Origin: Acidimicrobium ferrooxidans DSM 10331
Lineage (GTDB): Bacteria; Actinomycetota; Acidimicrobiia; Acidimicrobiales; Ilumatobacteraceae
Assembly (NCBI GenBank): GCA_945900735.1
Contig: CAMDJX010000004.1
Span: 1-46,989 of the forward strand
Direction: 5' to 3'
DNA: 46,989 bases
Position numbers and translations under genes: made by a program. Under the pieces are notes generated by a model, which was given only the letters and a program-made list of their open reading frames with translations, had not been told where the DNA came from and ran no database searches. Positions 20,015 to 45,107 of this stretch are shown here, piece by piece; positions within the stretch are counted from its first letter, which is position 1; each line of letters begins with the position of its first letter.

Positions 20015-21805
20015 ATGAGCGGCAAAACACAAAACGCGATACTTAAACAATGGGTAAACGATTGGGCCGACATCTTGCAGCCCGACGACGTCTACTGGTG
20101 CGACGGCAGCGAAAAGGAATACAACGATCTCTGTGAAGACTTGGTCCTTGCAGGCACCTTCACCAAACTGAACGACGCCAAGCGCCCGAATTCCTACTGG
20201 GCACACTCCGACCCGGGCGATGTCGCCCGCGTTGAAGACCGCACCTACATCTGCTCAACAAACGAAATCGATGCAGGCCCCAACAACAACTGGCGCGACC
20301 CCAACGAGATGCGCGCCGAAATGAAGAAGCTCTACACCGGCGCCATGCGCGGCCGCATGATGTACGTCGTGCCTTTCAGCATGGGCCCTCTCGGTTCCCC
20401 CATCGCCCACATCGGCGTGCAACTCACCGACAGCGCCTACGTCGCCGTCAGCATGCGCATCATGACCCGCATGGGCCAAGGAGCACTCGACGCCCTCGGC
20501 AACAATCAGTGGGTTCCCTGCGTGCACTCCGTCGGCGCCCCACTTGCACCCGGCCAAAAAGATGTCTCCTGGCCATGCAACCCCGACAACAAATACATCG
20601 TGCACTTCCCCGAAACCCGCGAAATCCAAAGCTTCGGTTCCGGCTACGGCGGCAACGCCCTCCTCGGCAAAAAGTGTTTCGCTCTTCGCATTGCTTCCGT
20701 CATGGCCCGCGACAACGGCTGGCTCGCCGAGCACATGCTCATTCTCAAACTCACCAACCCACAAAACGAATCCAAATACATCGCCGCCGCATTCCCTTCC
20801 GCCTGCGGCAAAACCAACCTCGCCATGCTCGTCCCCACCATCCCAGGCTGGAAAGCCGAAACCATTGGTGACGACATCTGCTGGATGAAGTACGGCCCCG
20901 ACGGCCAGCTCTACGCCATCAACCCCGAGGCCGGCTTCTTCGGCGTCGCCCCCTTCACCAGCGACGAAACAAACCTCAACGCCATGCGCACCATGTGGGG
21001 CAACTCCATCTTCACCAACACCGCCCTCACATCTGAAGGCGACGTCTGGTGGGAAGGCATGACCAAGGAAACTCCATCCGGAATCACCGACTGGAAGAAC
21101 AACGCCTGGACAAAAGACAACGAAGCACCCGCAGCCCACCCCAACGCACGCTTCACCACCCCCGCCAGCCAGTGCCCCAGCATTGCCCCCGAATGGCAAG
21201 ACCCAAATGGCGTGCCCATCTCCGCCATCTTGTTCGGTGGCCGCCGCCGCACCACTGTCCCACTCGTGACCCAAGCCTTCGACTGGAACCACGGTGTCTT
21301 CCTCGGCTCCATCATGGCCTCCGAAACCACAGCCGCCGCCGGCGGCACCGTCGGCAAGCTCCGCTTCGACCCAATGGCCATGCTCCCCTTCTGCGGCTAC
21401 AACATGGCCGACTACTTCAAGCATTGGCTCCAAGTCGGAACAAAAACCGATAAAGAAAAACTCCCCCAAATCTTCTTCGTCAACTGGTTCCGCCGTGACG
21501 AAGCAGGCAACTTCATGTGGCCTGGCTACGGCGAAAACAGCCGTGTCCTCAAATGGGTCTTCGACCGCCTCAACGGCACCGCCGAAGCAAAACAAACCCC
21601 GATCGGCTACCTCCCCACCACCGACTCCCTCGATACAAACGGCCTCCACATCAACGCCCAAGATCTCGAGGCCATCACCTCGGTGGACGTCCCCGGCTGG
21701 CGCGAGGCCGTCCCCCAAATCCGCGACCACTACGCCGCCTTCGGCGATCGTCTACCAAACGAACTAGCAACTGCCTTAGATGCTTTGGAGAGTTCGCTCA
21801 ATTAG
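20015..21805 (+). CDS. pckG: Phosphoenolpyruvate carboxykinase (GTP)
   Basis: This enzyme interconverts oxaloacetate plus GTP with phosphoenolpyruvate plus CO2 at the entry to gluconeogenesis. The 596-residue protein shows [72 protein letters not shown] (the P-loop with the reactive Cys of GTP-type enzymes), [34 protein letters not shown] and [27 protein letters not shown]-type C-terminal motifs. All are features of the GTP class, common in actinobacteria. Length is normal. It is preceded by a cold-shock-like gene with a two-base gap. It is the last clearly core gene before the defence island. Confidence 0.98.
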
Positions 21806-22056: not shown

Positions 22057-23436
22057 TTAAGATTTCGGTTCAATACCTGCAACTTTACGACGATTGGCAA
22101 TTTCTGGGTCAGTGACACCCGCTTTAATCCACTTTTCGGTGGCTTCAGCAGTGAAGTTATTCGTTTTCCATAGGTAGGCAGTCTTTGGGTCGAGTTTTGA
22201 TTCAATCCATGGTCCTAGTACTGACTGCTGGTATCCGTTTTTGTCTTTTTCTAAAACATCTACCGGCCATCCTGCTTTTGCCCATTTAATAATCGTATTA
22301 ATTGTCAGAGAATGGATTTTGATGGCATCGGCAATCCTTGTAAGGCGGAAACCTTTTGACAGCAAATATTGAAACTGTTTTTCTGTAATGCCTGCGTTCA
22401 GTAAATACTTCGCATAATTCGAGTCCATGAAGATGTCTTCAACTGCTTTGACTTTTTCATATAGTTCAAGTTGATTTGGCTCAATTTTTAGTTCTAAAGC
22501 CAACTCGGCATCGTCTGGCTCAAGTCCGTTATCTACTGTTGCAGTTATCATTTCTGCAGAAAATCCTCGCCACTTCACCAAGTTTTCTGCATCTATTGTC
22601 ATCCCTGATGCGGCTAATTGTGTAAGCGTTGATACACACTCAGATGCGATATCTGACAATTCGGACTCTTTGCTATTTTTTGCAGTCCAATGTCGAATCC
22701 GCGTTTGTCGTGGGTATAACTCATCAAGTTGCTTTTCAATCACCTCAAACAATTCTGTGCGAAGGACGGCCGCTTGGTTTGGTTTGAAGCCTGCGTCATG
22801 CCAATTCTTCCAATAATTCTCATCTTCATCTAGTGGGTCTTCGTATTTTGATACTTCAAAACCTAGCTCGCACCACTTAATTGCATCGGCAAAGGAAAGA
22901 CCCGCTTCATAAAACTCATCGTCCGGTGAATACTCTCCAGCATCTGTGTATTTCTTTGCATTCTTAGGGGATACTTTCCACTTAATCCAATCCATTGCGT
23001 CATCAAAATCCTCAAATCCTTCGGCAATCCATTTCAAAGTTTCCTCTAGATTCAAACCTGCATCTCTGAATTGTTCATCCGGAGCCTCAAACAACCCATT
23101 TTTTCTGTGCTGTACTGCTGTTTTAGGGTCAACCTTCCACAAATGCCAACACACCGCTTCAAACAAATCGAATCCTTCTTTAACCCATTGAATTGCGTCT
23201 TCTATTGCAATTCCGTTATACAAATAAAGGCTGTCCGGTGGGTTGAGCGTTCCACTCTTTCTGTAGCGATTTACATCACCTGGTTCAACGTCCCAGACTG
23301 CCCATTCGATAGCTTCACTCGAGGAAAAGCCGTGGGCCTCCCATTCGTCCGGGTCTTTAGAAACTCCACACTCATCAACGAACCATTGTTTTTCGTAGTC
23401 AGCCCATGGTGAGATGTTCTTTGAATGTTTGTTCAT
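22057..23436 (-). CDS. Gly-Phe/Trp 52-residue repeat protein of the type I restriction operon
   Basis: This 459-residue protein is not a known Hsd subunit. Its first half consists of three tandem units with Gly-Phe at residues 36-37, 88-89, 140-141 and 192-193, an exact 52-residue period. Each unit follows GF-x(2)-F/S-x-A-x(2)-W...PK-x-A...PD-x(2)-F/Y...GL/I...A-I/L-x-W. The second half is less regular but again has W-x-x-G-x turns, including EKWIKAGVTDPEIANRRKV at the end. It is acidic, predicted helical, and has no signal, membrane segment or nuclease motif. Its ATG overlaps the hsdR stop (TAATG, 23434-23438), so it is made with the restriction complex. I infer an interaction or control role; the molecular function is unknown. 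Confidence 0.8.
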   Translation of the reverse strand: MNKHSKNISPWADYEKQWFVDECGVSKDPDEWEAHGFSSSEAIEWAVWDVEPGDVNRYRKSGTLNPPDSLYLYNGIAIEDAIQWVKEGFDLFEAVCWHLWKVDPKTAVQHRKNGLFEAPDEQFRDAGLNLEETLKWIAEGFEDFDDAMDWIKWKVSPKNAKKYTDAGEYSPDDEFYEAGLSFADAIKWCELGFEVSKYEDPLDEDENYWKNWHDAGFKPNQAAVLRTELFEVIEKQLDELYPRQTRIRHWTAKNSKESELSDIASECVSTLTQLAASGMTIDAENLVKWRGFSAEMITATVDNGLEPDDAELALELKIEPNQLELYEKVKAVEDIFMDSNYAKYLLNAGITEKQFQYLLSKGFRLTRIADAIKIHSLTINTIIKWAKAGWPVDVLEKDKNGYQQSVLGPWIESKLDPKTAYLWKTNNFTAEATEKWIKAGVTDPEIANRRKVAGIEPKS

Positions 23437-26435
23437 TAGTAGTTCTCACGTATGTACGCATACGCACGGTCGAATAGTTCACCCGCAGGTGGTAAACCAC
23501 TATTCCTCAGAATGAGCCGCAACTCTTGACGAACCGTTCTGTCACCAGGATGCGATGATTGCCATCCTGTTCCACGTACAGGCGACACCAATGAGTCGAC
23601 CTGTTCTACGACAGTCTCAATGACCACTGGGGTGCCATCTGGGCGACATTCTTCAAAGATTTGAGTCAATGCACCTTTGCGAGGGTCTAAGACTTTGATT
23701 TCGCTTATTCGACCTTCATCGTCAGCTTTTTCGGCTTCGAGTAAGTCCTTAGCAAGCTCAAGTAACCGTTTGAGAAAGTCAACACTCTCTTCAGCACTCG
23801 AAATCCGACTGAGACGGAGCATCTCAAGACGCTCAGCCAATGAGCGCCACACCTTTTCTGAAATCTCGTCACCGAACCGCTTCTGAATCCGCTCCTCCAA
23901 CTTTTGGAGCACTTCAAGCGCGTTCAAAGGATTCTTCGCTTCTTTGGTGTCTTCAGGAAACAACGTCAAATCTTTGAGCGCTTCAATTACACCTACGTCC
24001 ATAGCAACTTCTTCTAGCTGTTTGCCATCAATGGTTACGCCGGTGAGGTGTTGGTGCACTATCTCCATTGTCTTTGCACCAAGTTTTTGCCACAACAACA
24101 AGTCAGCTGCTTTGTTAGGTGCAATCGACGAATACACCTTGGCCAGGAACCTGTAGTCCTCTTCAATCGGTCGAAGTTTCATGTCTGGCCACAAGAATTC
24201 AAACAATCCCTGGCAACGCATGAATTGTGCTGCGAACTCTTCGCGCTTAGGCAATGTGTCAAGTATCTGTTGTGCATCATGAATTTGATTAAAAATTAAT
24301 GCACTGCGGTCAACAGATTCAAAGCGGGCAACGGTGTTAGTTACTTCTGCCATCAGTTCAGACAACAGAACTTCAACATCTTCTTGATTCTGACCAGGTA
24401 TTGATGTTGACTTGGTCATCAACGCTTTGGCTAATTCTTTGCCCAGACCGACATAGTCGACCACAAGTCCGTGGAGTTTTTGTTGACCCGTTAATGGATT
24501 GGTCCAGCGACGGTTGGTTCGACAGATTGCTTGAAACAACGTATGCGCCCGCAATGGTTTGTCGAGATACATCGCTCCCTCGATTGGAGCATCAAACCCA
24601 GTCAGCAACTTGGCTGTCACAATCACGAATTTGAGTGGGTCGTTGATGTCACGGAAACGGTTCTTGATTGTTGCCTCTTCTTCGCGCTCCAAATTCCAGC
24701 GTTCCCATTCCTGTGGGTCATCTTTGGATGTGGTCATCACAACCGTACATTCTTCGCCTGGTTCCAACATTTGACTGATGGCGTCGTAATACGCCACACA
24801 TGTCGCCCGGTCATAAGCAACAATTTGCGCTTTTAATCCAAGTGGACCAATACGTGCTCGGTAATGCTCAACAATGTCTTTACAGATTGCTTCAATTCGG
24901 TCTTTGTCTCGCACCACGACCGAAATGTGTGAAGCCTTGGCAGCAAGTTTGCCTTTTTCTTCATCAGTCAGATTCTCTTCTTCCGCCAAATCATCGAAGG
25001 CCTTTTGCAGGGCCTCAGCGCTGAAGTGAAAGTTCACCAGGCGTGTCTCAACGTGCACAGGAAGCGTCGCACCGTCATGAATAGAGCGTTCTACCGAATA
25101 ATGGTTCAACGCACCTTCAGGGTCATCGGGGTCACCGAACATCGCCCACGTGTTGCGGTCATCAGTTGATATCGGTGTACCGGTCAAACCAATGAACTTG
25201 GCGTTAGGTAATGCTGCTCGCATATCGAGACCAAGACGACCTTCTTGTGTGCGGTGGGCTTCGTCAACCATGACCACAATGTTTTCGCGTTCGTTAAGTA
25301 AGCCGGCTTCAGCAAATCGATAAATCGTGGTGATAATCACACCTCGTGCATCGTCACGTAGCAAACGACGTAAATCTTCTTTCGATTCAGCAGTTTTCAA
25401 AGACTGAATACCTACAGATTTAAACTCGGCTTCGGTTTGTTGAATCAGTTCCAACCGGTCCAAAACCACGACAATCGTTGGCGCATCCATGTCCGTTTGA
25501 TGCCGAAGCTTTGCAGCAGCATAAGCCATCGCAAACGTCTTGCCAGAGCCCTGGTGATGCCACACCAACCCTTGGCGTTTCTTTGGGTCACGGCAACGAG
25601 CAATAATCGCTGCCACCGCTTCAACTTGTGGGTATCGGGGAATCACTTTCACACGAAGAGCACCTTTAGCTGTAGGCCGAGACGTATACAACGTGAATGA
25701 CCTCAGAATGTCGAGCACCATTTCAGGGTTCAACAACAACTCAGCCGAACGGATTACTGACGGCAAACCTGGTGGCATGATTTCATCAGTTGTGGAAGAC
25801 CAGTTCAGCCACAACTCTGGTGGCTGGCATACAGCCCCATAATGAAACTCTCTGCCCTCAGAAGCGAACGACAATACGTTCGGAACAAAAAACTCTGGGG
25901 TTTTGCGCTCATAAGCATTGTGAATATCGGTTGCGCCATTCAGCCAAGAAATGTTCGCATTGACAGGTGTTTTCATTTCTCCAACAACGACCGGTAAACC
26001 ATTCACCCAAAGCACAATGTCGTAGCGTCGATGTTCACGGCCGGCATGAAACGTTGCTTCAGTCGTAATTCGCAATATGTTCGACTTTGGATTGTCAAAA
26101 TCAATCAGCCGAACCTGAACATCTTTTTCAGTACCGATGTATTTAACCGTCCTACGGCCACACATCCATTGCGCAAACTCTTCGTTAGAGCCAACTAGGC
26201 CGTCATTACGAACCCCAAGTAACACTGCGCGCAATCGAGCGAGAACTTCGCCAGTGCGACCTGGGTTCTCGGCAATCTCAGGATTCAACCGAATTAGTGA
26301 AGCCTCTAAATCATTCGCTAGAAAAACACCGTCAACAGGTCGACCAAGAGTTTCATCGTTGGCATATACCCAACCAAAATTCTCTAAGTGTTTCGCCAAT
26401 CCGTACTGAACTGTTGCTTCGTTCAGTTTGTTCAT
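23436..26435 (-). CDS. hsdR: Type I restriction enzyme R subunit
   Basis: HsdR supplies the endonuclease and the ATP-driven DNA translocase of a type I restriction enzyme. The N-terminal nuclease domain includes RRYDIVLWVNGLPVVVGEMK, with D...E-x-K of the PD-(D/E)XK fold. Then come RYPQVEAV, LVWHHQGSGKTFAMAYA (Walker A), VVLDRLELIQQ, VMVDEAHRTQEG (DEAH), FIGLTGTPI, VTAKLLTGFDAP and ICRTNR, the SF2 motor motifs. The C-terminal helical part contacts HsdM/HsdS. Length (999) is normal. Its start overlaps the upstream hsdS stop (ATGA) and its stop overlaps the repeat-protein start, so the operon is tightly coupled. Confidence 0.95.
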   Translation of the reverse strand: MNKLNEATVQYGLAKHLENFGWVYANDETLGRPVDGVFLANDLEASLIRLNPEIAENPGRTGEVLARLRAVLLGVRNDGLVGSNEEFAQWMCGRRTVKYIGTEKDVQVRLIDFDNPKSNILRITTEATFHAGREHRRYDIVLWVNGLPVVVGEMKTPVNANISWLNGATDIHNAYERKTPEFFVPNVLSFASEGREFHYGAVCQPPELWLNWSSTTDEIMPPGLPSVIRSAELLLNPEMVLDILRSFTLYTSRPTAKGALRVKVIPRYPQVEAVAAIIARCRDPKKRQGLVWHHQGSGKTFAMAYAAAKLRHQTDMDAPTIVVVLDRLELIQQTEAEFKSVGIQSLKTAESKEDLRRLLRDDARGVIITTIYRFAEAGLLNERENIVVMVDEAHRTQEGRLGLDMRAALPNAKFIGLTGTPISTDDRNTWAMFGDPDDPEGALNHYSVERSIHDGATLPVHVETRLVNFHFSAEALQKAFDDLAEEENLTDEEKGKLAAKASHISVVVRDKDRIEAICKDIVEHYRARIGPLGLKAQIVAYDRATCVAYYDAISQMLEPGEECTVVMTTSKDDPQEWERWNLEREEEATIKNRFRDINDPLKFVIVTAKLLTGFDAPIEGAMYLDKPLRAHTLFQAICRTNRRWTNPLTGQQKLHGLVVDYVGLGKELAKALMTKSTSIPGQNQEDVEVLLSELMAEVTNTVARFESVDRSALIFNQIHDAQQILDTLPKREEFAAQFMRCQGLFEFLWPDMKLRPIEEDYRFLAKVYSSIAPNKAADLLLWQKLGAKTMEIVHQHLTGVTIDGKQLEEVAMDVGVIEALKDLTLFPEDTKEAKNPLNALEVLQKLEERIQKRFGDEISEKVWRSLAERLEMLRLSRISSAEESVDFLKRLLELAKDLLEAEKADDEGRISEIKVLDPRKGALTQIFEECRPDGTPVVIETVVEQVDSLVSPVRGTGWQSSHPGDRTVRQELRLILRNSGLPPAGELFDRAYAYIRENY

Positions 26436-27499
26436 GCAGCCCCCAACAACGAATCATACGAGGCTGGAATTTCATGCTCACCCGACAACAAACCGGACAA
26501 CAAACCAGACCGTAGATTCTTTGCATCAACTACAGCTTGTTCCGTTGACTGAATCACCCCATCCATCGATGACACAATCTCTACAATCCGCTTCTGCTCT
26601 TCAATCGGTGGGGCAAAAACAAGTTCATTTCGTAGTACTTTCCTATCAAGACTTGGAACGGTGCTTCCACCAGCAAACCTTTCAAGGCGCATCGTTTCGA
26701 GGGTAAGGGCTGCAAATCTTTCATCGTTTCCCATAAATTCCGTGACGTACAACGTTGTATTTAGAGGCCAATATCCACCCGTCGCGAATAACACTTTTCC
26801 GATGGTTCCACTTCGTCCAGTAATTACTCCAGGAATTGGACCAATTCGTTCGTTATGCCACCCAACAGTTCCATTTGAGGCAATTACTGGAAATTCTCCA
26901 TCAATCCGAGATTGCGTGGGGAGGTCGTGACCACGCTTCAAGAAAACAAAGTCCTCCATTTTTTTTCGGTGTTTTGATGGAAGAACAATCAACTCATGTA
27001 ACACCGCGTTTCGTGCTGCACGGGCTGTGTCAACCTGTTGTTGCAACGCATCAATATAGGCATCAACATAAGACACCACATCCACAATCCGCTTCTGCTC
27101 AGCGGGTGGTGGCAAAAGTACTTGGGTGGAGTAAGCACGGTCACGGTTCAGTCCAGGAACACCAGTTTGTGCATTCAATGAAGGTAAATCCAAAAACCCC
27201 ATAGTGAAGTAAAGAAAGCGAATATCAGTTTCAATTTTTTGTACCACGTAATAGGCCGTGTCAATCACTGAACAAGGTAAGTCCGACCACCAGACCGCAC
27301 CTGCAGTTCCTTTTCGGCCAACCACAATTACAGGAGCTTCATTGACCAAAGGCTCGGAGTGCAGTCCAACTTCCCCAGCAGAACCAAATACTGGAAATCC
27401 TTTTCCATCCCGATTCTCAGCTTTAAGAGGTTTTCCATACTCCAAGGTGATTATTTCGCCGAGGGTGGTCTCGGTCCAGCCGTCACGCATGGTTGACAT
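26432..27499 (-). CDS. hsdS: Type I restriction enzyme specificity subunit, two target-recognition domains
   Basis: HsdS selects the DNA site for methylation and cleavage. The roughly 355-residue protein has two halves, each a target-recognition domain followed by a conserved helix. The first ends with VLLPPPAEQKRIVDVVSYVD and the second with VFAPPIEEQKRIVEIVSSMD. The start MSTMRDGWTETTLGE nearly repeats the neighbouring half-size subunit. The C terminus ends SGLLSGLLSGEHEIPASYD. ATG 27499 overlaps the upstream stop as TGATG; ATG 27490 is an alternative. Complete architecture suggests a functional subunit with a bipartite target. Confidence 0.92.
   Translation of the reverse strand: MSTMRDGWTETTLGEIITLEYGKPLKAENRDGKGFPVFGSAGEVGLHSEPLVNEAPVIVVGRKGTAGAVWWSDLPCSVIDTAYYVVQKIETDIRFLYFTMGFLDLPSLNAQTGVPGLNRDRAYSTQVLLPPPAEQKRIVDVVSYVDAYIDALQQQVDTARAARNAVLHELIVLPSKHRKKMEDFVFLKRGHDLPTQSRIDGEFPVIASNGTVGWHNERIGPIPGVITGRSGTIGKVLFATGGYWPLNTTLYVTEFMGNDERFAALTLETMRLERFAGGSTVPSLDRKVLRNELVFAPPIEEQKRIVEIVSSMDGVIQSTEQAVVDAKNLRSGLLSGLLSGEHEIPASYDSLLGAA
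27081..27118. repeat. Direct repeat, copy in full-size hsdS (central helix)
   Basis: The first 24 bases of this stretch are identical to 27683-27706 in the half-size gene, and both lie in a longer similar stretch covering the conserved EQKRIVD helix. A weaker third copy is near 26579-26611, at the end of the second target-recognition domain. The spacing between copies is about 602 bases. Confidence 0.75.
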
Positions 27500-28128
27500 C
27501 ACAAATTATCTCTTAAGTATTTGTCATATGAATCCGGAATCTCATGTTTTCCAGAAAGCAAATCCGACAAAAGTGCACTTCTGAGCCTTCTTGCCGAATT
27601 AAGGGCATCCGTTGTCATCCTGATTTCTGACGATGACGATGACGACAATGCTTGTATGTAAGCGTCGACAGAAGACACCAAGTCCACAATCCGCTTCTGC
27701 TCAGCGAGCGGTGGTAAAAAGACTTGATGAGGAAGCAATGTTTGTTTAGTTATGTGCTTCATTGTCGTTCCGTGCGACTTCTCAACAAGGTCATCAATTG
27801 CATGGTCAATCACAAGTGGAAGCCATTCATGACTAACTCCGGTTTTCTCGATGACTCGAAACAAGTGTTGATTTAGATAAGCAGAACCACGATTCCATAC
27901 CCGAACTGCAAGCGTCCCAGACCAGGAAAAAACAATGTCTCCATTACTCAAGACACATCTTTCAGGGACATCCACGGTCGTTCTGTCCACTTTCTCCATC
28001 GGGTCAAGCAATTGCTTGATACGAATGACCGCCGTTCCCTCATCCCCCAGGTCGCTCGGTTTGAATGGATATCCATTGATGTATTCCGCAATATCGCCGA
28101 GGGTGGTTTCGGTCCAACCATCACGCAT
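27499..28128 (-). CDS. hsdS: Half-size type I specificity subunit, single target-recognition domain
   Basis: This 209-residue HsdS-like protein starts MRDGWTETTLGDIAEYINGY, has one target-recognition domain, then VFLPPLAEQKRIVDLVSSVD with an Ser-rich turn, and ends SALLSDLLSGKHEIPDSYD. It therefore equals one half of a normal HsdS. Half subunits can pair to form a symmetric specificity, or they may be donors for recombination with the full-length neighbour. Its N terminus, central helix and C terminus are each near copies of matching parts of the downstream hsdS. The start overlaps the end of hsdM by eight bases, so it is certainly co-translated. Confidence 0.88.
   Translation of the reverse strand: MRDGWTETTLGDIAEYINGYPFKPSDLGDEGTAVIRIKQLLDPMEKVDRTTVDVPERCVLSNGDIVFSWSGTLAVRVWNRGSAYLNQHLFRVIEKTGVSHEWLPLVIDHAIDDLVEKSHGTTMKHITKQTLLPHQVFLPPLAEQKRIVDLVSSVDAYIQALSSSSSSEIRMTTDALNSARRLRSALLSDLLSGKHEIPDSYDKYLRDNL
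27683..27720. repeat. Direct repeat, copy in half-size hsdS (central helix)
   Basis: Partner of the repeat at 27081-27118, with 24 identical bases. A second pair of direct repeats marks the two gene starts: 27456-27490 and 28094-28128 differ at only 3 of 35 positions. Both pairs are in the same orientation, so recombination between them would delete or fuse coding segments rather than invert them. Confidence 0.75.
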
Positions 28129-29611: not shown

Positions 29612-29999
29612 TTCAACCCCTACCTCTTAAGCGAAATCCGCCTTCCAAGTATGCCTTAGGGGTCTTGCGCGGACTAATCAGGCCTATCAAGGTCTGACCA
29701 GGGCATAGCTAGCTCCCAACCTCCGCTGGAACTCATCCGCGCCAACTTGCAACAAATGATGACCGGACCAGCAGCAAACGAGAACTCCCCGTATCACTAA
29801 AGGCTTGCCCAACCGCACTGAGTAATTGCCGGGTTGATGAAGTGTTCGCAGATAACCGATTTATCCGGTCAATTCGTGTTTATCCCATATCAGCCCCACG
29901 ATTACGACGTAGTGGTCAGCTTGCTCACCTGAAAAACCCGAGTTCTTCTGCCTTGGAAATTTCGTAGAATTGGGTGTTAGCGGTAACACTGGGAGCACC
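29612..29999. promoter_or_regulatory. Divergent intergenic region between hsdM and the GmrSD-like gene
   Basis: No coding sequence is convincing in this 388-base gap. It must hold the promoters of both divergent units. On the plus side TAGAAT (29965-29970) is a plausible -10 and GGGAG (29991-29995) a ribosome site for ATG 30000. On the minus side AGGGG serves hsdM and CATACT is a weak possible -10. A short inverted repeat ACCG/CGGT lies near 29855-29870. No tRNA or attachment-site repeat was seen. Confidence 0.4.
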
Positions 30000-31739
30000 A
30001 TGCAACAAACCAATATTCCGATCGCCTCTTTGATTGATATGTACAAGCGAAAAGAGCTGGCTCTCCCTGCGATTCAACGGCGCTATGTATGGGAAGCAAC
30101 CAAAGTTCGTGATCTCCTTGACTCTCTTTATCGTGGGTATCCATCGGGTTCGATTCTCATGTGGGAAACCGACGAGGACATTGCTCTTCGCGACTCTGCC
30201 ATCTCCCAGCAGCCAAACACTGCTTTTTCGCGCAAGCTACTTTTGGATGGTCAGCAGCGCTTAACTTCTCTAACTTCAGTGCTCAATGGTGAACCTGTGA
30301 CAGTCCGAGGTAGATCAAAAACCGTTGAGATTCTCTTCAATCTTGAACATCCAGATGGACCACCAACAGAAGTGCTTGAAATTCTTGATGATGAAACCCA
30401 CGGAGACTCAGAAGATGGCGATGATGACTTCGACACAGAGGACGTTGAAGGCGAAGAATCTGGTACGTCTGGCCAAGCTCTCATTGAGACTCTGAATCGT
30501 CGTACATTTGTTGTCTACTCGCGCAGCCTTGCTGCCTTGCCGAATTGGGTCAAGGTCAGTGAAATTTTCAGTTCTGATGATGCTGCAATTTTAAAAAAAG
30601 CTGGGATTCGTGACCTTGATGATCCTCGGTATGCGAAGTACTCGGAGCGTTTAGCGAAGTTACGCCGGATAAAGAATTATGAATACGTGGTTCACGTCCT
30701 GGAAAGAGATATGAACTATGAGGAAGTCACCGAGATCTTTGTTCGTGTCAACTCTCGTGGAGCAAAACTCCGATCTAGCGACCTCGCTATGGCGCAGATG
30801 TCGTCTCGTTGGACGACTCTGCTTGAAGAACTTCAAGCTTTCCAAGATGAGTGCGAAGAAAACTGGTTCACTCTTGACCATGGAACGCTCGTGCGTTCTA
30901 TCGCTGTACTTGCAACTAATCAATGCAAATTTCGATCAATCGGCTCAATTCCTATTGACAAACTCCAGAAGTCTTGGAAGGAAGCCCAGGAAGGCTTACG
31001 CTTTGCAATTAACTTTCTTCGTACTCGTGCCGGAATTGAAGACGAGTCTTTGCTTTCATCGCCATTCTTGATTGTGCTGATCGCAGCTGCGACCCAGAAC
31101 AAGAATGGAAAGCTGACAGAGCTGGAACAAAAGCAGCTACTTCGATGGTTTTTCATAGCTAATGCCCGAGGTCGATATGGTCGTGGTTCTTCAGAATCTC
31201 TTTTGAATGCGGACTTGGCCATTATCTACCGTGGGGCTGGAATAGCCGGGCTGCTCGAACCTCTCAAGATTCAGTTCGGGCGTCTCGAGTTTGAACTTTC
31301 GGACATCAAAGGAAAGAGCAAAAAAAGCCCCATGTTCTCAATGGCATACCTTGCTCTCAAAGATCGCGGTGCAAAAGACTGGATGACTGGTCTTGGCCTG
31401 TCGCTAGTCCACCAAGGTAAAAAACACTTTATTCAGCACCACCACATCTTCCCTAAATCTAAACTCAAACGTGCCAATAAGGAAGATAACCAAATCAACG
31501 AGATTGCAAACTTCGCTTTCATTGGTGGCGGCACAAATCGGGAAATAACCAACAAAGATCCAATTGAATATTTACCGAAGATCGCAAAGAAGCAAGGCGA
31601 AGATGTGCTTACCGCGCAGCTAGTGCCACTCGACCCCTCCCTGTGGGAAATGGACAACTATGAAAAATTCCTCGAAGTACGCCGTTCTGCACTTATCGAT
31701 ACGATGAATAGCTTCTTGGAATCCAAATGTGCCGATTAG
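30000..31739 (+). CDS. GmrSD-like DUF262-HNH restriction protein
   Basis: The 579-residue protein starts with a DUF262 (GmrS-like) ParB/Srx-type domain: LPAIQRRYVWEATKVRDLLD, GYPSGSILMW and LLLDGQQRLTSL, the nucleotide-binding and hydrolysis signature. A very acidic insert (EDGDDDFDTEDVEGEE) follows at about residues 140-155. Near the C terminus HHHIFPKSKLKRANKED and TNREITNKDP form the DUF1524 HNH-type nuclease seen in GmrD. Fused GmrS-GmrD proteins are type IV restriction enzymes that attack modified (for example glucosylated) cytosine in phage DNA. GGGAG before ATG 30000 sets the start. It is divergent from the type I operon. The exact target is not shown by sequence. Confidence 0.82.
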   Translation: MQQTNIPIASLIDMYKRKELALPAIQRRYVWEATKVRDLLDSLYRGYPSGSILMWETDEDIALRDSAISQQPNTAFSRKLLLDGQQRLTSLTSVLNGEPVTVRGRSKTVEILFNLEHPDGPPTEVLEILDDETHGDSEDGDDDFDTEDVEGEESGTSGQALIETLNRRTFVVYSRSLAALPNWVKVSEIFSSDDAAILKKAGIRDLDDPRYAKYSERLAKLRRIKNYEYVVHVLERDMNYEEVTEIFVRVNSRGAKLRSSDLAMAQMSSRWTTLLEELQAFQDECEENWFTLDHGTLVRSIAVLATNQCKFRSIGSIPIDKLQKSWKEAQEGLRFAINFLRTRAGIEDESLLSSPFLIVLIAAATQNKNGKLTELEQKQLLRWFFIANARGRYGRGSSESLLNADLAIIYRGAGIAGLLEPLKIQFGRLEFELSDIKGKSKKSPMFSMAYLALKDRGAKDWMTGLGLSLVHQGKKHFIQHHHIFPKSKLKRANKEDNQINEIANFAFIGGGTNREITNKDPIEYLPKIAKKQGEDVLTAQLVPLDPSLWEMDNYEKFLEVRRSALIDTMNSFLESKCAD

Positions 31740-32886: not shown

Positions 32887-33510
32887 TTAGTTTTTAGGCG
32901 TCTTGTCTCCAGCTCTTACCAAATAACCTTTCTTCGCAAGTTCTTTAGCCAAAGTGCCTTCACGGTCCTTCGCATGTTGCTCCACGTAGAACGGTTTTGG
33001 CGTTAACTTTTTGTTGAGTCCGACAAAATGTGCAGTGACATACTTCGAGTTGAGTCGCTGGTCCTTTGTTGATTTGGCACCATACTTATGCTGATTTACG
33101 CGCTCATCGATGGATTTTGAAGTGAATCCAACGTAGATATGACCTTTTGGCGATTTCTTTACTAGGTGATCCTGTTTCAAATCGATCACATAAACACGCC
33201 ACTCTTTTGCGTTTCCATTCACTGCATGCCCAGCTGCAGAGAGCTTCTCAATCAGTTCATTTTTGCGCCTTTTTGCAACTTCAATTGTCTTCGCCGGCGT
33301 TTTATAGGGAACCAAGTTCAGTAGCTTTGTAAAGTGCCCAACGGCGTACCTTGGACCAGCTCCATTTCTTAATTGTTGAAATCTGACCTCAGGGGACGAT
33401 AGACAATAGTCAACGTACACATGGGGCTTTCTGGGATCTCTCTTTTTCATAGTGTCATCAAACTGAACGACAATTAGGTAATACCACTTAGTCTTTTTCT
33501 TGCCCGACAT
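32887..33510 (-). CDS. Tandem GIY-YIG-like nuclease-fold protein
   Basis: The 207-residue protein is an internal duplication. Copy 1 (about 9-97) reads WYYLIVV...HVYVDYCLSSPEVRFQQL; copy 2 (about 104-198) reads WRVYVIDL...HIYVGFTSKSIDERVNQH. Both continue with a HF-x-L...K...E..A..R...L...L...G pattern. Copy 2 matches the GIY-YIG core 'YVGxTxxxxxRxxxH' with R137 and H141, and has a candidate catalytic Glu in REGTLAKEL (near 184). In copy 1 the Gly is Asp and the His is Leu, so it is probably inactive and may bind DNA or dimerise. ATG 33510 has GGAG five bases upstream. It is the last gene of the leftward RecQ-fusion operon. Confidence 0.68.
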   Translation of the reverse strand: MSGKKKTKWYYLIVVQFDDTMKKRDPRKPHVYVDYCLSSPEVRFQQLRNGAGPRYAVGHFTKLLNLVPYKTPAKTIEVAKRRKNELIEKLSAAGHAVNGNAKEWRVYVIDLKQDHLVKKSPKGHIYVGFTSKSIDERVNQHKYGAKSTKDQRLNSKYVTAHFVGLNKKLTPKPFYVEQHAKDREGTLAKELAKKGYLVRAGDKTPKN

Positions 33511-33550
33511 AGAACTCCGATCCATTGCTGTTTATCAAATACAAAGTTGA

Positions 33551-33949
33551 CTAACTTTCGAAATTAATGTAATCATCCCATTCGGTTGAGACTGTTTTTT
33601 CAAATGGCCCGTCATCACTAAAGTGAATATCACGCCAATAAACCATCTCGCCGGGTAAGTAAGAGCTCGAGTCATTAAATGGCGCTATGTAAGCACCTTC
33701 GCTTCTTCGGGGAGCAACGGCACTTCGTAAAGCGCGCTCGTCTTCTTTCCAAAGTTCAAAGCTGTCTACCACGTCTTTGAGAAGATGTTCCAGCTTTTTA
33801 TTGCGGTAAAGAAGAAGAAAGACAAGTTCGCTCGGGAAATTCACAATATCGCTTAATTCGCTGCGAAGAAGAAATCGGTTGGCCATTGCTTCGTCTAGCT
33901 CACCGTAGTGACTTTCCCATCCCCGCAATATTTGCAACTTTGAAAGCAT
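33551..33949 (-). CDS. Unknown protein of the RecQ-fusion operon
   Basis: The 132-residue protein is not recognised. It is mostly helical at the start (LRGWESHYGELDEAMANRFL, then DIVNFPSELVFLLLYRNKKL) and has a looser acidic C terminus with PGEMVYWRDIHF and a final STEWDDYIN. It has no signal peptide, membrane helix or nuclease motif. It lies between the coiled-coil gene (61-base gap) and the GIY-YIG gene (40-base gap) on the same strand. Its third-position composition matches the island rather than the core genes. A role with the RecQ fusion is inferred only from position. Confidence 0.65.
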   Translation of the reverse strand: MLSKLQILRGWESHYGELDEAMANRFLLRSELSDIVNFPSELVFLLLYRNKKLEHLLKDVVDSFELWKEDERALRSAVAPRRSEGAYIAPFNDSSSYLPGEMVYWRDIHFSDDGPFEKTVSTEWDDYINFES

Positions 33950-34010
33950 TTCGATTTCTACTTTCTGAATATCCTTCTTCGGCGATTATGTCCGGAGTCG
34001 ATGCAACTGA

Positions 34011-34469
34011 TTACTTTTTCCATCCAAGCTTTTTTTGTAGTTTTTCTGGAACAGCGTCAATTTTTGCATTCAAAACGGCTATTTGGTTGGTCAGTTCCGT
34101 CTCCTGCACTTTCTTCTCTTCGACTTTTGCAGCCAGTTCCCTGATTTGGACATCAAGAGAGTTTGCGATCTTTTCAATTCCTTGTTGCATTGCTCCGAGT
34201 TCTGTACTTTGGAGAAAACTAGCAACTGAATGAAGCGAGTTTTCAACGGCAGAATTTGCTCGCTTTAGCTCAGTCGAAATCAACTTGATTTCATCAGCCA
34301 TTCTCCTTACCTGTAATTGCGACTCCGTTATTCCGGCTTCAGCACGGCTTATCTCGGCGCTCGAACTCGCTAGTGCCTCAATCTTTTCAGTAAGCGAATC
34401 CAAGGCAGTGCTGGATTGATTGAACTTAGCGATTATCGACTTTAGTTCCAGATTTCTTTCGTCAGCCAT
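34011..34469 (-). CDS. Coiled-coil protein of the RecQ-fusion operon
   Basis: The 152-residue protein is almost entirely predicted coiled coil: LELKSIIAKFNQSSTALDSL, TEKIEALASSSAEISRAEAG, then VRRMADEIKLISTELKRANS and VEEKKVQETELTNQIAVLNA. The C terminus is basic, ending KKLGWKK, which could touch nucleic acid. There is no membrane segment. A strong ribosome site (AAAGGAGA, five bases before the ATG) and a gap of only ten bases after the RecQ fusion indicate co-expression. It could be a scaffold or sensor subunit for the helicase; sequence alone does not show more. Confidence 0.75.
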   Translation of the reverse strand: MADERNLELKSIIAKFNQSSTALDSLTEKIEALASSSAEISRAEAGITESQLQVRRMADEIKLISTELKRANSAVENSLHSVASFLQSTELGAMQQGIEKIANSLDVQIRELAAKVEEKKVQETELTNQIAVLNAKIDAVPEKLQKKLGWKK

Positions 34470-34478
34470 AATTCTCCT

Positions 34479-37400
34479 TTAATAGATTTGGTTTAATACA
34501 TTCGTTGCGGTAATCAATGCAGAATTGACTTTCCGGTTAAGAGCAATTATTGAAAGGGCAATATCATCGTCTTTGGCTTCTTCAAAGATCGTTGAATCTA
34601 ATTCTTCGAACTTCAGACCTGAATAGTCAAGAACAGCACATACCGCACCAAGGCCATTGGGATTAATCTTCTTTGCTTTTTCAATTAGCCATTTCCCGAA
34701 TCCGGTTAAGTCTTCATATTTTGCGCCATAATTCTTCGAAGACTCTTCAAGACTAAGAAGAATGTTGAATTCAAACTCTGAGAGACTTCCTTCAGGATCT
34801 ACGAATTCTGCCAACGCTCTACCCGCCAGTAAGCCAGGATGGGTTGGATAAGAGGCCAGAAGTCGAGCTGTTGCGGCACGCCACTCTCGCGCATCGTTAG
34901 CTGAATTGAGTGAATTCAACACTCGTTGCCAATTTGAAAACAAGAAGTCTTGATTATCGAGCAGTTTTTCTATTCCAGGCATCAGGTCACCTTCAGAAAG
35001 GAAATCTAGAATGCGTGTTCGCAATTCCTGATCTGCCTCGGGACCCTTCGAAGCACTTTCTCGCGCTGCAAGCCACATCTCACGTAGCGAACGTCTCCTC
35101 GATCGCTCAATCGTGTCGTAGACGAATTCCATTAACGCCAGCCCACAGATCTCTATTGCCTCAATCACCTGTGCATAATCCCGGTTTACGCGTTGAGATA
35201 AGGCCTCTGCCCGTCCGGGCTGACTCCGCTCTACAAAATTCATTAAATTGTTGATCACGGAGTCAGGCGTTACACCATTAACGGTGACTATGAACTCACT
35301 CGAACCCCACTCAACCGTGTAGTCACCGACCACACCCAATAAGGTCAGACGATGAAGTGACTTCTCACGACCTTTTTGATCGCCTGCAAATGGCAGAGAG
35401 AGTTTTCTCATTGTTGGCGCCGGATCGAGAATTCTTGCCACCTCCAATAACCCTGCGTGTTCGCCATCAATCCCGCCGTAGGTTTCGAGATGGAACCACA
35501 TTGATTGGACTACGTCATCCTTAGCAGCCCTCTTGACATCATTCGCCGTGCGAGCGCTTTCTAAATCAATAGCTTCTGATAAAAGCGACTGATTTCTGGA
35601 TTCATCAAACTCGGTCAAGATGAGAGTGCATTGCGCCTCCCGCCGATCTCGTCCCGCTCGGCCAACTTCTTGATAATAGGACTCAATTGATTTAGGTAGT
35701 CCGTAATGGACAACCCAACGGATATTGGGTTTGTCAATTCCCATTCCGAATGCAACTGTAGTTACAAGCGCTGTCACCTGATTTTTCTTAAATGCACTTG
35801 CATTAGTTCTTTTGACTTCATCCCAGTTAATGTTGCCAAATTTTTTGGGCTTGGTTCCCGCATATATCCGCGTGGTTGGAATGACACTACTGATCTCATC
35901 TGATGTGTCTACAACTCCGTGATAACCGTTAACCGTCGGACAGAAAATCAGGCCAGAGTAAGTGTTCTCTCCATCTGGTTCGAAAAAGGTTTGCGGTGAT
36001 TCGCCAAACAAGGTAGGAAGTGACTTGATAACACCACGCAGATCAGACCCAGCGTTGTCTGGAGTGGTCAATCTAATTCGATAATTCAATTCCTTGCGGT
36101 CAAAAGTCTTGGGTCGAATTACGGAATTCGCGGTTCGTTCAATCATTCCGAGCTGGAAAAGAACATCTCTTAGTACCGCTCGCGACGCAGTCCCTGTCAA
36201 GGCAAGAAGTGGCGGGGGTTTGCCTGCTGAATCTTTACAATGATCACGCAAGACATCACCAAGCCCCAAATAGGCGGTGCGGAAATCATGACCCCATTCA
36301 GAGACACAGTGGGCCTCATCAATTACGACAACATTCACAGGTGCGAGCGAGGTCATTTCACGTAGCGCAGACCTAAACGCCTGACTCTTCATTCGTTCAG
36401 GAGATACGAAAATAAAATATGCATCTGCATTCGATACCGCAGACAACAAAGCCTTACCCAGTCCTTGCTTAGTTGTGATGCTCGAAATTCCAATTGTCCG
36501 GTCTATTCCGTGAATCTTCAATCCACCCATCTGGTCGTCGATGAGCGCATTGATTGGGTCGATGACAAGAGTTCGCCCGGGCAAACACAAACCTGCCATT
36601 TGATAAATAATGCTCTTACCTGCCCCAGTCGGCAAAAGAACTGTGCAATCACGCCCTTCAAGGACCTCAGATAATGCTTCATATTGTCCTTGCAAAAAGT
36701 CATTCTTGGCAAAAACAGCCTGAAGAATTGAAACGAGCGCCCTCCGTGATTGCTCCGAAGTTGCCCTGACGGGAATTCGCTCAGTTGTGCCAACAGGAGG
36801 ATTGGCGATGTGGACCGGCGTTGCAGCTGATCTAACAACAATCTCAGGACTACTAGAGAAAGTCGGCAATGAATTAACCGATGTATTCCCTGGCTCGAGT
36901 TTCACGATGAGATCAAGTTCCTGAGGCTGCACTTCGTGATCGGTGTACATGCCCAATTCATCTCGAACATATGACTTCCAGGACCCATCCAACTCGAAAG
37001 AAACTCGCTCAGGAGCGACGCCCTTGTTGCCCCAAAGGCTGTCGAGTGCGAAAAGTAGTCCCAAGTAAGGGCCGATCAATTCGGTAGACAAATGTGTCGG
37101 ATCCTCGACCCTTACCGCCCAACTATTTCCAGCCAAGAATCCTCGAGAGCACCCTTCGATCAAAGCCAGAAGCAGTCGGTGAGTTTGAATGGGGGCCCAA
37201 AACATTCGGTCCAATTCATGATTGGACGGGTTAATGCCACTTAGGACTTCCGTAAGCTTCTGAATTCCCGTTCCCGAATTTGAACGCATCTCAGATGTGG
37301 ATATACGTATTGTTTGAAAACCAGCACTCGACAACGCTCCATCACGTTCGGCGTCGCTCAGGCTTTGGGATTCGTGTTGCAGTCCATCGATTTCAACTAT

Positions 37401-38180
37401 GAAGGCTTTCACACCTGGTGGATGAAAAAGAAAGTCGCAACGTCGACAACTTGCAGTTTCGATACCGTGGGCTCGAAGTAGTAGATCAAATGATGCTTGT
37501 GGAACTACCCACCTAGCGATTTCGGGCCATTTAGCCTTAACCATTTCGAGAAATTCAACCTCTCCAGTTGAATCACCAAATGCATCAATTTCTGAGGGTG
37601 CATGAACTGGAGGAATTGTTGTTTCAAAGGTGATTGTCTTTGGACTTCTCAATCGTGGAGCAATATCACCTGGAATTCTGGACGCAATGATCGATTTCTC
37701 GAGTCCTAAAAGATTAAGAAGCTTTAACTCAGATTCAGGGTGCAACGGTGGTGCATCGCCCCTTGTCAAAAGTTTAAGAAACATGCCAAGGACTCTTCGC
37801 GTATCGGAATCCGCAGGTTCAAAGCTCGGAAGATCCGACCATGCCACCCAGCAAGAATTGAACTGGGCTGGAGAAGCTGAACTTACCGACCTCAGTGAAG
37901 CCCCGACTCCCGCATACCGGGCTTTCCAGCCCGATCTTCTCAGCGTTCCGTCAGTCCAGTCAACTCTGGCAAAAGAACTGAAGTCAGATGCAGATGGAGT
38001 TGCTTTCTCGAAATCGCCTGAAATTTCTGAAGGCTCGCCATCGAAGGTGGTGGTGCACTTACCTTTTGATTTGTTCTTCGCCCAATTGGGGCACGTATAG
38101 AACGGCCCCCTCCTACTCTGCTTGAGCACCATTTGAGTACCACAATCGGGGCATACATTTCCTGCAGTCGGTTTCCCCAT
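34479..38180 (-). CDS. Zinc-ribbon / nuclease / RecQ-helicase fusion protein
   Basis: The 1233-residue protein has three recognisable parts. Residues 9-45 form a topoisomerase-like C4 finger (C10, C13, C30, C42). Residues about 207-315 look like a DUF559/Vsr-type PD-(D/E)XK nuclease: RCDFLFHPPGVKAFIVEIDG with D249, E263 and D265, then H269 and D280. From about 480 a RecQ motor follows: GQYEALSEVL, LLPTGAGKSIIYQ (517-523 P-loop), VIDEAHCVSEWGHDF (621-624), LLALTGTASR, VAFGMGIDKPNIRWVVHYG and YYQEVGRAGRDRRE. The rest (about 400 residues) is helical and not the usual RQC/HRDC. A cut-and-unwind role in defence is inferred. The promoter is described separately. Confidence 0.85.
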   Translation of the reverse strand: MGKPTAGNVCPDCGTQMVLKQSRRGPFYTCPNWAKNKSKGKCTTTFDGEPSEISGDFEKATPSASDFSSFARVDWTDGTLRRSGWKARYAGVGASLRSVSSASPAQFNSCWVAWSDLPSFEPADSDTRRVLGMFLKLLTRGDAPPLHPESELKLLNLLGLEKSIIASRIPGDIAPRLRSPKTITFETTIPPVHAPSEIDAFGDSTGEVEFLEMVKAKWPEIARWVVPQASFDLLLRAHGIETASCRRCDFLFHPPGVKAFIVEIDGLQHESQSLSDAERDGALSSAGFQTIRISTSEMRSNSGTGIQKLTEVLSGINPSNHELDRMFWAPIQTHRLLLALIEGCSRGFLAGNSWAVRVEDPTHLSTELIGPYLGLLFALDSLWGNKGVAPERVSFELDGSWKSYVRDELGMYTDHEVQPQELDLIVKLEPGNTSVNSLPTFSSSPEIVVRSAATPVHIANPPVGTTERIPVRATSEQSRRALVSILQAVFAKNDFLQGQYEALSEVLEGRDCTVLLPTGAGKSIIYQMAGLCLPGRTLVIDPINALIDDQMGGLKIHGIDRTIGISSITTKQGLGKALLSAVSNADAYFIFVSPERMKSQAFRSALREMTSLAPVNVVVIDEAHCVSEWGHDFRTAYLGLGDVLRDHCKDSAGKPPPLLALTGTASRAVLRDVLFQLGMIERTANSVIRPKTFDRKELNYRIRLTTPDNAGSDLRGVIKSLPTLFGESPQTFFEPDGENTYSGLIFCPTVNGYHGVVDTSDEISSVIPTTRIYAGTKPKKFGNINWDEVKRTNASAFKKNQVTALVTTVAFGMGIDKPNIRWVVHYGLPKSIESYYQEVGRAGRDRREAQCTLILTEFDESRNQSLLSEAIDLESARTANDVKRAAKDDVVQSMWFHLETYGGIDGEHAGLLEVARILDPAPTMRKLSLPFAGDQKGREKSLHRLTLLGVVGDYTVEWGSSEFIVTVNGVTPDSVINNLMNFVERSQPGRAEALSQRVNRDYAQVIEAIEICGLALMEFVYDTIERSRRRSLREMWLAARESASKGPEADQELRTRILDFLSEGDLMPGIEKLLDNQDFLFSNWQRVLNSLNSANDAREWRAATARLLASYPTHPGLLAGRALAEFVDPEGSLSEFEFNILLSLEESSKNYGAKYEDLTGFGKWLIEKAKKINPNGLGAVCAVLDYSGLKFEELDSTIFEEAKDDDIALSIIALNRKVNSALITATNVLNQIY

Positions 38181-38187
38181 GCACGTA

Positions 38188-38216
38188 AAACTACCCAGTC
38201 CTTGTACAGGTCACAA
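38188..38216 (-). promoter_or_regulatory. Promoter of the RecQ-fusion operon (leaderless)
   Basis: On the minus strand TTGTGA (38216-38211) is a -35-like box, followed by a 17-base spacer and TAGTTT (38193-38188) as -10. The RecQ-fusion ATG begins seven bases later (38180), with no ribosome site between, so the mRNA is probably leaderless. Confidence 0.55.
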
Positions 38217-38228
38217 ATGATTCTGCTG

Positions 38229-38244
38229 TTAATTACTCAATTAA
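38229..38244. promoter_or_regulatory. Inverted repeat in the divergent RecQ/SF1 promoter gap
   Basis: TTAATT (38229-38234) and AATTAA (38239-38244) form a perfect 6+6 inverted repeat around ACTC, between the two divergent transcription units. It lies just upstream of the leftward -35 box. AAATGATT also occurs twice in this gap (38214-38221 and 38275-38282). These are plausible operators that could co-ordinate the two units; no regulator gene is adjacent. Confidence 0.35.
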
Positions 38245-38308
38245 GGATCAAAAGCCAGTGCGGGGTACCATCAGAAATGATTAATGATTGGAAGATAGGT
38301 GGCTTTTT

Positions 38309-39460
38309 ATGAAATGGATGGTTCCAATAAACGACCTTGACGCCGTTCAAATGCGGGCGATCGAAAGCATCATCGATAATCAAGATCGTAATCATTGGGT
38401 AAAAGGATTTGCAGGGTCAGGCAAAACAGTTGTGCTTACACATGTGCTGGAGAGACTTGCCACGTCAGACCAACCAATCAGAGTTTGCTTCGCGACATTT
38501 ACGCATGCGCTAAAGGATTTGGTTGAATCTGGTTTATCAGACATCGCCAAAAAACGGATCGATATATCGACTTTTAATGGTCTTAAGAATTTACGCAATG
38601 ATTACGATTTGGTTGTTGCTGACGAAATGCAAGACATCCCCAGTCGCCAACTTCCAATTTTGGCGAAGAAATCCGATGTCCTCGTAATTGCCGCAGATTT
38701 TGATCAATCCATTTACCGATCAGCATGCTCTACTGCCGAATTGAACGCTGCTGTAAAGCCAGCGAAAGAACATCAGCTGAGGGAAATACATCGAATTAAT
38801 GACAATATTTTTGAGATTGCGACTTCGGTGTATACCGATGCATACATCGTCAGCCAAACAACGGTTCGACAAGACGAGGAGCAGGCGCGTATTTACACCG
38901 CAGTTTCAGCCAGGGATGAATTTACGACGATGTACCAAGAAGCATTGCGTGTTTCGGCCAAGGAGAGGCCTAGCGCAATACTTCTTCCAAGTAAGGCCCT
39001 TCTTGACAAATTCATCGCAATCATCGCGTCTGAGAATTCCTATTCAGGTACCCCACCAAGTGTAAAAAACGACGATCGCCCAGAAATCGGAGGGCCAGCT
39101 GACCCTTTCAAAGAGATAAACAGCTACCTGAAAAAGAATAGATCCAACCTCCAAGTATTCGGCGGCGGAAGTGGCTCGCTTTACGATAGCGATACGAAGA
39201 AGATGGTCTACTTAATGACCTACCACAGCGCTAAAGGCCTAGATTTTGCGAACGTATTTCTCCCTCATTTGACCTCAGACGTCTCATTAGAGCCAATGAA
39301 AGGATCTAGCGACGACCAGGAGCGAAGAATATTCTTTGTTGCATCAACACGGGCAAGAGAGCGCCTATACCTTTCCTACCATGACGAACCGCATAGATTT
39401 ATTGAAGAAATACCCGAAGAACTTTTACAAACCTTTCACAAGCAGAAGCGTAACTACTAA
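38309..39460 (+). CDS. Small UvrD/Rep-like SF1 helicase
   Basis: The 383-residue protein has SF1 helicase motifs: DAVQMRAIESIIDNQ (Q-like), WVKGFAGSGKTVVLTHVLER (Walker A), VCFATFTHALKD, YDLVVADEMQDIPSRQ (Walker B), VYLMTYHSAKGLDFANVFLP and RRIFFVASTRARERLYLSYH. It lacks the large 1B/2B insertions of UvrD, so it is compact and needs partners to process long DNA. AGGTGG lies six bases before ATG 38309. It is divergent from the RecQ fusion and two-gene coupled to the unknown at 39464. Similar compact helicases occur in several anti-phage systems, but the partner here does not match one I know. Confidence 0.87.
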   Translation: MKWMVPINDLDAVQMRAIESIIDNQDRNHWVKGFAGSGKTVVLTHVLERLATSDQPIRVCFATFTHALKDLVESGLSDIAKKRIDISTFNGLKNLRNDYDLVVADEMQDIPSRQLPILAKKSDVLVIAADFDQSIYRSACSTAELNAAVKPAKEHQLREIHRINDNIFEIATSVYTDAYIVSQTTVRQDEEQARIYTAVSARDEFTTMYQEALRVSAKERPSAILLPSKALLDKFIAIIASENSYSGTPPSVKNDDRPEIGGPADPFKEINSYLKKNRSNLQVFGGGSGSLYDSDTKKMVYLMTYHSAKGLDFANVFLPHLTSDVSLEPMKGSSDDQERRIFFVASTRARERLYLSYHDEPHRFIEEIPEELLQTFHKQKRNY

Positions 39461-43874: not shown

Positions 43875-44021
43875 ATGCCCCTGCCGTTTAAACGTGAAAG
43901 GGAAATCTTGATGGCGCTCACGTGGAAAGAGGCGGCAGTAGAGGCGCTTCGAGGCTTCGGCTCGCTCGCGGCTGCAAAATGTCCCTTTTATGAGGCTGCT
44001 ACGCTCAGCTCATGGCGCTAA
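43875..44021 (+). CDS. Short ORF overlapping the first pentapeptide gene, possible winged-helix remnant
   Basis: A 48-codon frame starts at ATG 43875 (or 43911, behind GAAAGGGAA) and reads LMALTWKEAAVEALRGFGSL, ending CPFYEAATLSSWR. 'TWKEAAVEAL' is like the first helix of HARE-type winged-helix domains, but the rest of such a domain is absent. Its TAA overlaps the start of the pentapeptide gene by ten bases (44012-44021), which would couple translation. It may be a leader peptide, a truncated gene or chance. Confidence 0.3.
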   Translation: MPLPFKREREILMALTWKEAAVEALRGFGSLAAAKCPFYEAATLSSWR

Positions 44022-44512
44022 GTTTCGAGAATACAGATCTGTCTGGTCGTAGTTTTTCGGGGTCTGATCTTCGAGAGGCAAGCTTTCATCGCTGCCGTCT
44101 TGACCGTGTTGACTTCTCAGACGTAGATCTGTCTCTGGGCCGGATCACCCAGTGCGAGGGGGTGGGTGCATTGTTTCATCGTGCCAAGCTGGTTGGAGTT
44201 CGTTTTCATGGACTCTGGCAATCGTTTCAAGACGGACCAATGGTTGCCGGCTCGATTCTTGCGAAATGTGACTTTGATGGTGCGGATCTGTCAAATGCAC
44301 TTTTGGCTGGCGTTGATCTGACTGAGTCGAATCTTGCCAATACGGTTTTGCGAGGTACGGACTTTCGTGGCACCAAGTCTGAACTACCGAGCAACGTAGC
44401 ACTCAAAGACGCGAAGTTGTCCAAAGTGAATTTGAGTGGAGTGATTGCAGATTCATCAACAGTCTGGCCACTCGAGGTCGATGGTGCGAGATTCGTTTTC
44501 GATAAGCCTTAG
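44012..44512 (+). CDS. Pentapeptide-repeat protein
   Basis: The 166-residue protein has A(D/N)Lxx-type five-residue repeats: FENTDLSGRSFSGSDLREAS, then DFDGADLSNALLAGVDLTES and LANTVLRGTDFRGT. These fold as a right-handed square beta-helix that mimics DNA, as in the gyrase inhibitors MfpA and Qnr, though most family members have unknown roles. A break of about 40 residues (45-85) separates two repeat blocks. No signal peptide is present. It is followed by an unknown gene and another pentapeptide gene on the same strand, a likely operon. Confidence 0.8.
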   Translation: MALSFENTDLSGRSFSGSDLREASFHRCRLDRVDFSDVDLSLGRITQCEGVGALFHRAKLVGVRFHGLWQSFQDGPMVAGSILAKCDFDGADLSNALLAGVDLTESNLANTVLRGTDFRGTKSELPSNVALKDAKLSKVNLSGVIADSSTVWPLEVDGARFVFDKP

Positions 44513-44560
44513 TAATGCGAAATGAGAAGACAGGACAGAAGAGGGTTGGAGACGAGATCA

Positions 44561-45028: not shown

Positions 45029-45107
45029 CTTAACAGAGTCAAACGAATGAAGCATGAGCCAAGAACATCATCAGACACAACAACTACCGAACGAAGGGGA
45101 CAAGAAC

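Follow-up and report, generated by a model that had tools for sequence, protein, structure and literature searches.

A candidate exchangeable accessory gene behind hsdR, encoding a protein of tryptophan-rich 13-residue repeats

The gene that ends a type I restriction operon in the 46,989-nucleotide stretch of DNA analysed here (the window) encodes a protein of tryptophan-rich 13-residue repeats. The same repeat occurs independently in phages and in bacteria, the gene overlaps hsdR, and different genes have been swapped into the place behind hsdR in related loci. We propose, at what we judge to be roughly even chances, that this is an exchangeable accessory gene in a type I defence cassette, encoding a solenoid that acts as a protein-binding scaffold.

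Position and repeat structure of the accessory gene

The coordinates of the accessory gene and of the adjoining hsd genes are collected in Table 1. The ATG of the accessory gene and the stop codon of hsdR have one base (A) in common, in the sequence TAATG at 23436, as an earlier note on this DNA had described. The same note placed the gene outside the classical type I set, and it is indeed an additional gene that closes an hsdM-hsdS-hsdS-hsdR operon. By its position it could be co-translated with HsdR, and the overlap of the reading frames suggests that its translation may depend on that of HsdR. The other genes of the operon overlap by 8 bases (hsdM/hsdS-half), 4 bases (hsdS-half/hsdS) and 4 bases (hsdS/hsdR). 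On the 3' side, a gap of about 250 bases separates the accessory gene from a convergent PEPCK gene (20015-21805).

Table 1. Features of the accessory gene and the hsd operon, in window coordinates
Feature	Extent	Position	Strand	Remarks
hsdM	496 aa	28121..29611	minus	N6_Mtase, HsdM_N
hsdS-half	209 aa	27499..28128	minus	one Methylase_S domain
hsdS	356 aa	26432..27502	minus	Methylase_S, two stretches
hsdR	999 aa	23436..26435	minus	stop overlaps accessory start by one base
Accessory gene	459 aa	22057..23436	minus	ATG start; 13-residue Trp-rich repeats, one predicted helix each
Super-unit 1	residues 36-87, 4 x 13 aa	23176..23331	minus	
Super-unit 2	residues 88-139	23020..23175	minus	
Super-unit 3	residues 140-191	22864..23019	minus	one compensated insertion/deletion
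Middle segment	residues 218-280	22597..22785	minus	no repeat signal; longer helices in low-confidence model
C-terminal part	residues 281-459	22060..22596	minus	degenerate 13-mers, clearest 410-448; HMM 20.3 bits

Gly-Phe pairs occur at residues 36, 88, 140 and 192, i.e., with the period of 52 that had been noticed earlier, and further pairs at 216, 291 and 362. The period stands far above chance: over residues 1-215, the per-position score at lag 52 was 0.74, whereas no lag in any of 300 shuffles exceeded -0.12. Of two other pairs said to be conserved, Pro-Asp does recur with a spacing of exactly 52 (residues 67, 119 and 171), whereas Pro-Lys is looser, being present in the repeats only at 104 and 157, which are 53 apart. 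The insertion and the deletion in the third super-unit are of one residue each and cancel one another, leaving the register of 52 intact. The 52-residue unit is not, however, the elementary repeat. In residues 1-217, all but one of the eight best lags were multiples of 13 (52, 104, 13, 91, 39, 65 and 26), and in residues 281-459 the top lag was 13. We therefore regard 13 residues as the elementary unit and 52 as a super-repeat of 4 x 13, the 52-residue period being restricted to residues 36-191.

An HMM was built from 28 rows of 13-mers from other proteins, with the accessory protein left out. It gave 58.1 bits on the accessory protein (E = 5.5e-17), when the best of 2000 shuffles gave 8.5 bits, and this score, far beyond the shuffles, places the protein in the 13-residue repeat group as defined here. 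The N-terminal part alone scored 43.4 bits and the C-terminal part 20.3 bits, compared with 9.1 bits for the best of 1000 shuffles, while the middle segment (residues 218-280) gave no score. The next best open reading frame in the window reached 5.8 bits.

A firm match to a characterised enzyme family, which the earlier note had named as an outcome that would count against it, was looked for; no catalytic family for the accessory protein was found in Pfam, NCBIfam or PADLOC, and no PrrC-like anticodon nuclease or NTPase domain in the same three libraries. The HSDR_N/helicase, N6_Mtase and Methylase_S domains, all detected in the adjoining hsd genes, gave no match in it. No Pfam repeat model scored above its cut-off on the 13-mer proteins; PF25296 ("Decapeptide") gave 22.9 bits on a phage member, against a cut-off of 45. 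In titles and abstracts of the literature we found no matching family with a helical 13-residue repeat, the 13-aa repeats of nematode map-1 lying outside the comparison.

Close homologues of the accessory protein were found neither in 60 relatives, nor by tblastn in plasmids or phages, nor by peptide pattern in viral contigs, so that residue conservation gives no pointer to a binding surface. Several candidate matches were rejected. Three PDB sequence matches were at chance level, and repeat-profile matches to an aldolase and a designed TPR were chance hits of one unit. A search of the phylum with profile A2 gave short matches only, one of which, when examined whole, looks by eye like an ordinary tryptophanyl-tRNA synthetase. 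Two matches in the phylum to profile A4 (G481 and G752) were left out of the count, their scores with the independent HMM being 18 bits or none. A wide EA..W..W pattern returned mainly chance matches and a single true phage member, L088.

Relatives of the repeat and the predicted fold

A weak relative from another actinobacterial genome (L003) has the repeat in a plain form, GF-x4-A-x2-W-x3, every 13 residues. A DNA pattern for W-x3-G-F-x-P-x-E-A-x2-W identified phage contigs with long, clean arrays, e.g., WKSYGFTPEEAKK-WSDYGFEFYKASE-WKEFGFSPERAKE. The phage carriers are L060, L062, L055, L057, L061, L065, L066 and L088, and the actinobacterial carriers are the genomes G432, G274, G115, G078 and G811, and a Euzebya plasmid. 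These proteins resemble the accessory protein in their W-x3-G-[F/L/V]-x4-[A/V]-x2-W unit with period 13, but those tested lack a dominant 52-residue super-repeat and have other gene neighbourhoods. The repeat is rare, being found in four genomes in class-wide samples (the first four listed), with G811 a further carrier in the same family.

Several relatives adjoin assembly or remodelling partners, which we count in favour of a scaffold. In two genomes of one family (G432 and G274) the repeat gene comes after genes for a MoxR-type AAA ATPase and a VWA protein, the latter being DUF2201 by Pfam in G432, and the G115 protein is a fusion of the repeat with a J domain. In five related phage contigs (L065, L061, L057, L066 and L088) the repeat gene lies in a contractile-tail region, followed by an uncharacterised 240-aa gene and then, where the contig shows it, by a sheath-like protein; the tail sheath was confirmed by PHROGs in L065, where the repeat gene is at 866-1402. 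Another phage contig has three repeat paralogues, with a portal gene in one of its stretches. The surroundings of the repeat gene in G811 include an Mrr-type nuclease and an ADP-ribosylglycohydrolase. On the Euzebya plasmid the gene is flanked by a helicase on one side and DNA cytosine methyltransferases on the other, and a DndB-family protein is close by.

Single-sequence AlphaFold applied to the accessory protein alone gave a model with a pLDDT of 38.9, in which short helices recur about every 13 residues across residues 29-197; at that confidence it was dropped for claims about the fold. The phage array L060 was modelled with an alignment of nine proteins, the accessory protein among them, and reached a pLDDT of 92.0 (89.9-92.0 over five models). 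This model has a long N-terminal helix and then twelve short helices, mostly of 9 residues, with 4-residue loops. On this prediction, the 13-mer array is very likely a short-helix alpha-solenoid with one 9-residue helix and one 4-residue loop in every 13 residues. The fold of the accessory protein is predicted by carrying this model over from the homologous phage array, on account of its score with the 13-mer HMM.

In alpha-solenoids, tandem helices form an elongated superhelix with Gly/Pro turns, and the usual ligands are proteins or nucleic acids. The modelled array would be like the TPR, HEAT, ARM and mTERF solenoids in its tandem helices, presumably stacked, and its Gly/Pro turns, but the classical units have two or three helices and a length of about 30-45 residues, whereas the 13-mer array would have one helix with a period of 13. 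In the PDB, Foldseek found no natural match with confidence to the L060-type fold, the best being a designed cage (E = 0.038), and the best match by VIA was a designed toroid (Z = 6.5). Foldseek against BFVD gave no matches at E 0.001 or better.

The operon, its surroundings and the place behind hsdR

The hsd operon lies directly behind PEPCK, where congeners have either nothing or small HTH/toxin-like genes. This junction (window 21806 onward, compared with L152 and L155-L158) is empty in two congeners and holds small genes in three, one of these genes having a helix-turn-helix-like sequence by inspection. As to the right border of the island, the congeners' downstream core genes are not present in the window.

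Other features of the surroundings were noted in passing. Two hsdS genes occupy window 26432-28128, a half-size gene (209 aa) with one recognition domain and a gene of 356 aa. Pairing of half-size HsdS proteins is possible and might make specificity combinatorial. A divergent GmrSD_N (DUF262) protein (29970-31739), matching HEC-05 in PADLOC, adjoins the operon. Further defence-like genes in 32887-39460 encode a protein with a weak GIY-YIG match, a DEAD helicase of 1233 aa that also carries DUF559, and an SF1 helicase. Two open reading frames in 44012-45473 are pentapeptide-repeat-like by eye.

The earlier note had proposed looking for recurrent placement of the repeat next to hsdR, and had said that homologues found mostly away from restriction loci would speak against it. 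No such recurrence was seen. A 13-mer repeat protein was found in none of 11 loci of HsdR relatives (35-72% identical), the best score with the 13-mer HMM being 3.5 bits, a comparison that includes the locus of the 72% identical HsdR. Conversely, hsd genes were found in none of 19 repeat-carrying loci (177 kb), although the same query recovers hsdR in 11/11 of the HsdR-relative loci. For the repeat family, homologues thus do lie mostly away from restriction loci. The link of the repeat to restriction is weak, and no sign of one was seen beyond the one genome of the accessory protein.

What stands behind the HsdR relatives is varied: an AAA_21/AAA_15 ATPase (L023), a DUF4268 protein (L035), an unmatched 396-aa protein (L033) and, at L036:7282 (G087), a SIR2-like gene (PF13289 at 23.5 bits, just under the Pfam cut-off) that starts inside the stop codon of the hsdR relative, overlapping it by one base just as the accessory gene does in the window. 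Together with the variable PEPCK junction, these varied genes favour an exchangeable accessory gene over a fixed subunit. The place directly behind hsdR can hold unrelated, partly defence-like genes in otherwise related type I loci, and genes found there merit testing even if they resemble nothing known.

Possible roles of the accessory protein

The accessory gene would be a swappable "cargo" gene that closes the operon on its promoter-distal side. Its product would be a Trp-rich alpha-solenoid in which each 13 residues contribute one short helix and one turn of the form G-[F/L/V], with four helices per 52-residue super-repeat in the N-terminal half, and the overlap of the reading frames would keep its synthesis in step with that of HsdR. 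We consider the protein to be probably a protein-binding scaffold, because it is predicted to be a Trp-rich solenoid, has no recognised catalytic domain, and has relatives with a J domain, MoxR/VWA partners and phage tail genes. That it is related to defence is a little better than an even bet. As a scaffold it would serve the defence cassette: it might attach to the restriction complex, or it might sense or trap a protein of a phage or of the host; control of restriction and the countering of phage inhibitors, both suggested earlier, are possible roles. A partial precedent is PrrC in the EcoprrI type I locus, an extra gene whose product is a sensor of restriction inhibition (PMC12707154). It too is a non-classical addition to a type I restriction operon, but PrrC is an anticodon nuclease, whereas the accessory protein has no recognised nuclease or NTPase domain.

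It is unlikely that the accessory protein is a direct partner of HsdR. A dedicated fourth subunit, which would bind HsdR or the R2M2S complex and hold or control the restriction enzyme, would be served by the stoichiometric synthesis that the one-base overlap and the overlaps of the other operon genes favour. We doubt this reading, since the repeat is absent even from the locus with the most similar HsdR, and since the equal overlap of the SIR2-like gene elsewhere means that such an overlap is no mark of a subunit. Less probable again is a passenger of phage origin, i.e., a tail or head scaffold gene caught in a genomic island without a role in defence. The cleanest 13-mer arrays are indeed in phage contigs, five of them with contractile-tail genes nearby, and the island varies between congeners, but the part of the window that was examined yielded no recognisable phage structural gene, and the close overlap with hsdR points to co-expression with the operon.

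Two readings that involve DNA appear very improbable. In one, the protein would be an acidic DNA mimic like Ocr or ArdA, placed beside hsdR to damp self-restriction. Solenoids are elongated, and the N-terminal half has a pI of 4.37 and a net charge of -26 over 215 residues, the hsd subunits having pI values of 5.4-5.6. However, the ratio of acidic to basic residues is 48:22 in that half and 84:54 in the whole protein, short of the acidic excess of about 6:1 in such mimics, with their few basic residues: 34:6 for Ocr (PMC4872106) and 38:6 for the ArdA protein Orf18 (PMC3969726). Members of the repeat family also range from acidic to basic, so that acidity is no family trait. In the other, equally improbable, a solenoid that binds nucleic acid as mTERF or TAL proteins do would guide or sense DNA in the cassette. 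MTERF4 and MTERF3 do come up in the fold searches (Foldseek E = 0.29, VIA Z = 2.2-2.3), but these weak matches are below significance, designed toroids score higher, and the accessory protein is acidic overall.

The preferred reading, of an exchangeable gene for a scaffold, has a wider and distinctly speculative extension: this class of solenoid, as yet unnamed and built of one 9-residue helix per 13-residue unit, might form a modular protein-binding array on both sides of the conflict between phages and bacteria. It is a tentative thought that phages would use such arrays by their tail or head genes, and bacteria as a swappable sensor or trap co-translated with HsdR. If the preferred reading is right, this would be a helical repeat of very short period that is missing from the family libraries searched, and the clean phage arrays would be good targets for structural work and for repeat-protein design. 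A GW-type variant of the repeat, with units of 13-14 residues, was also seen in a viral-contig protein (L110, 934-1620).
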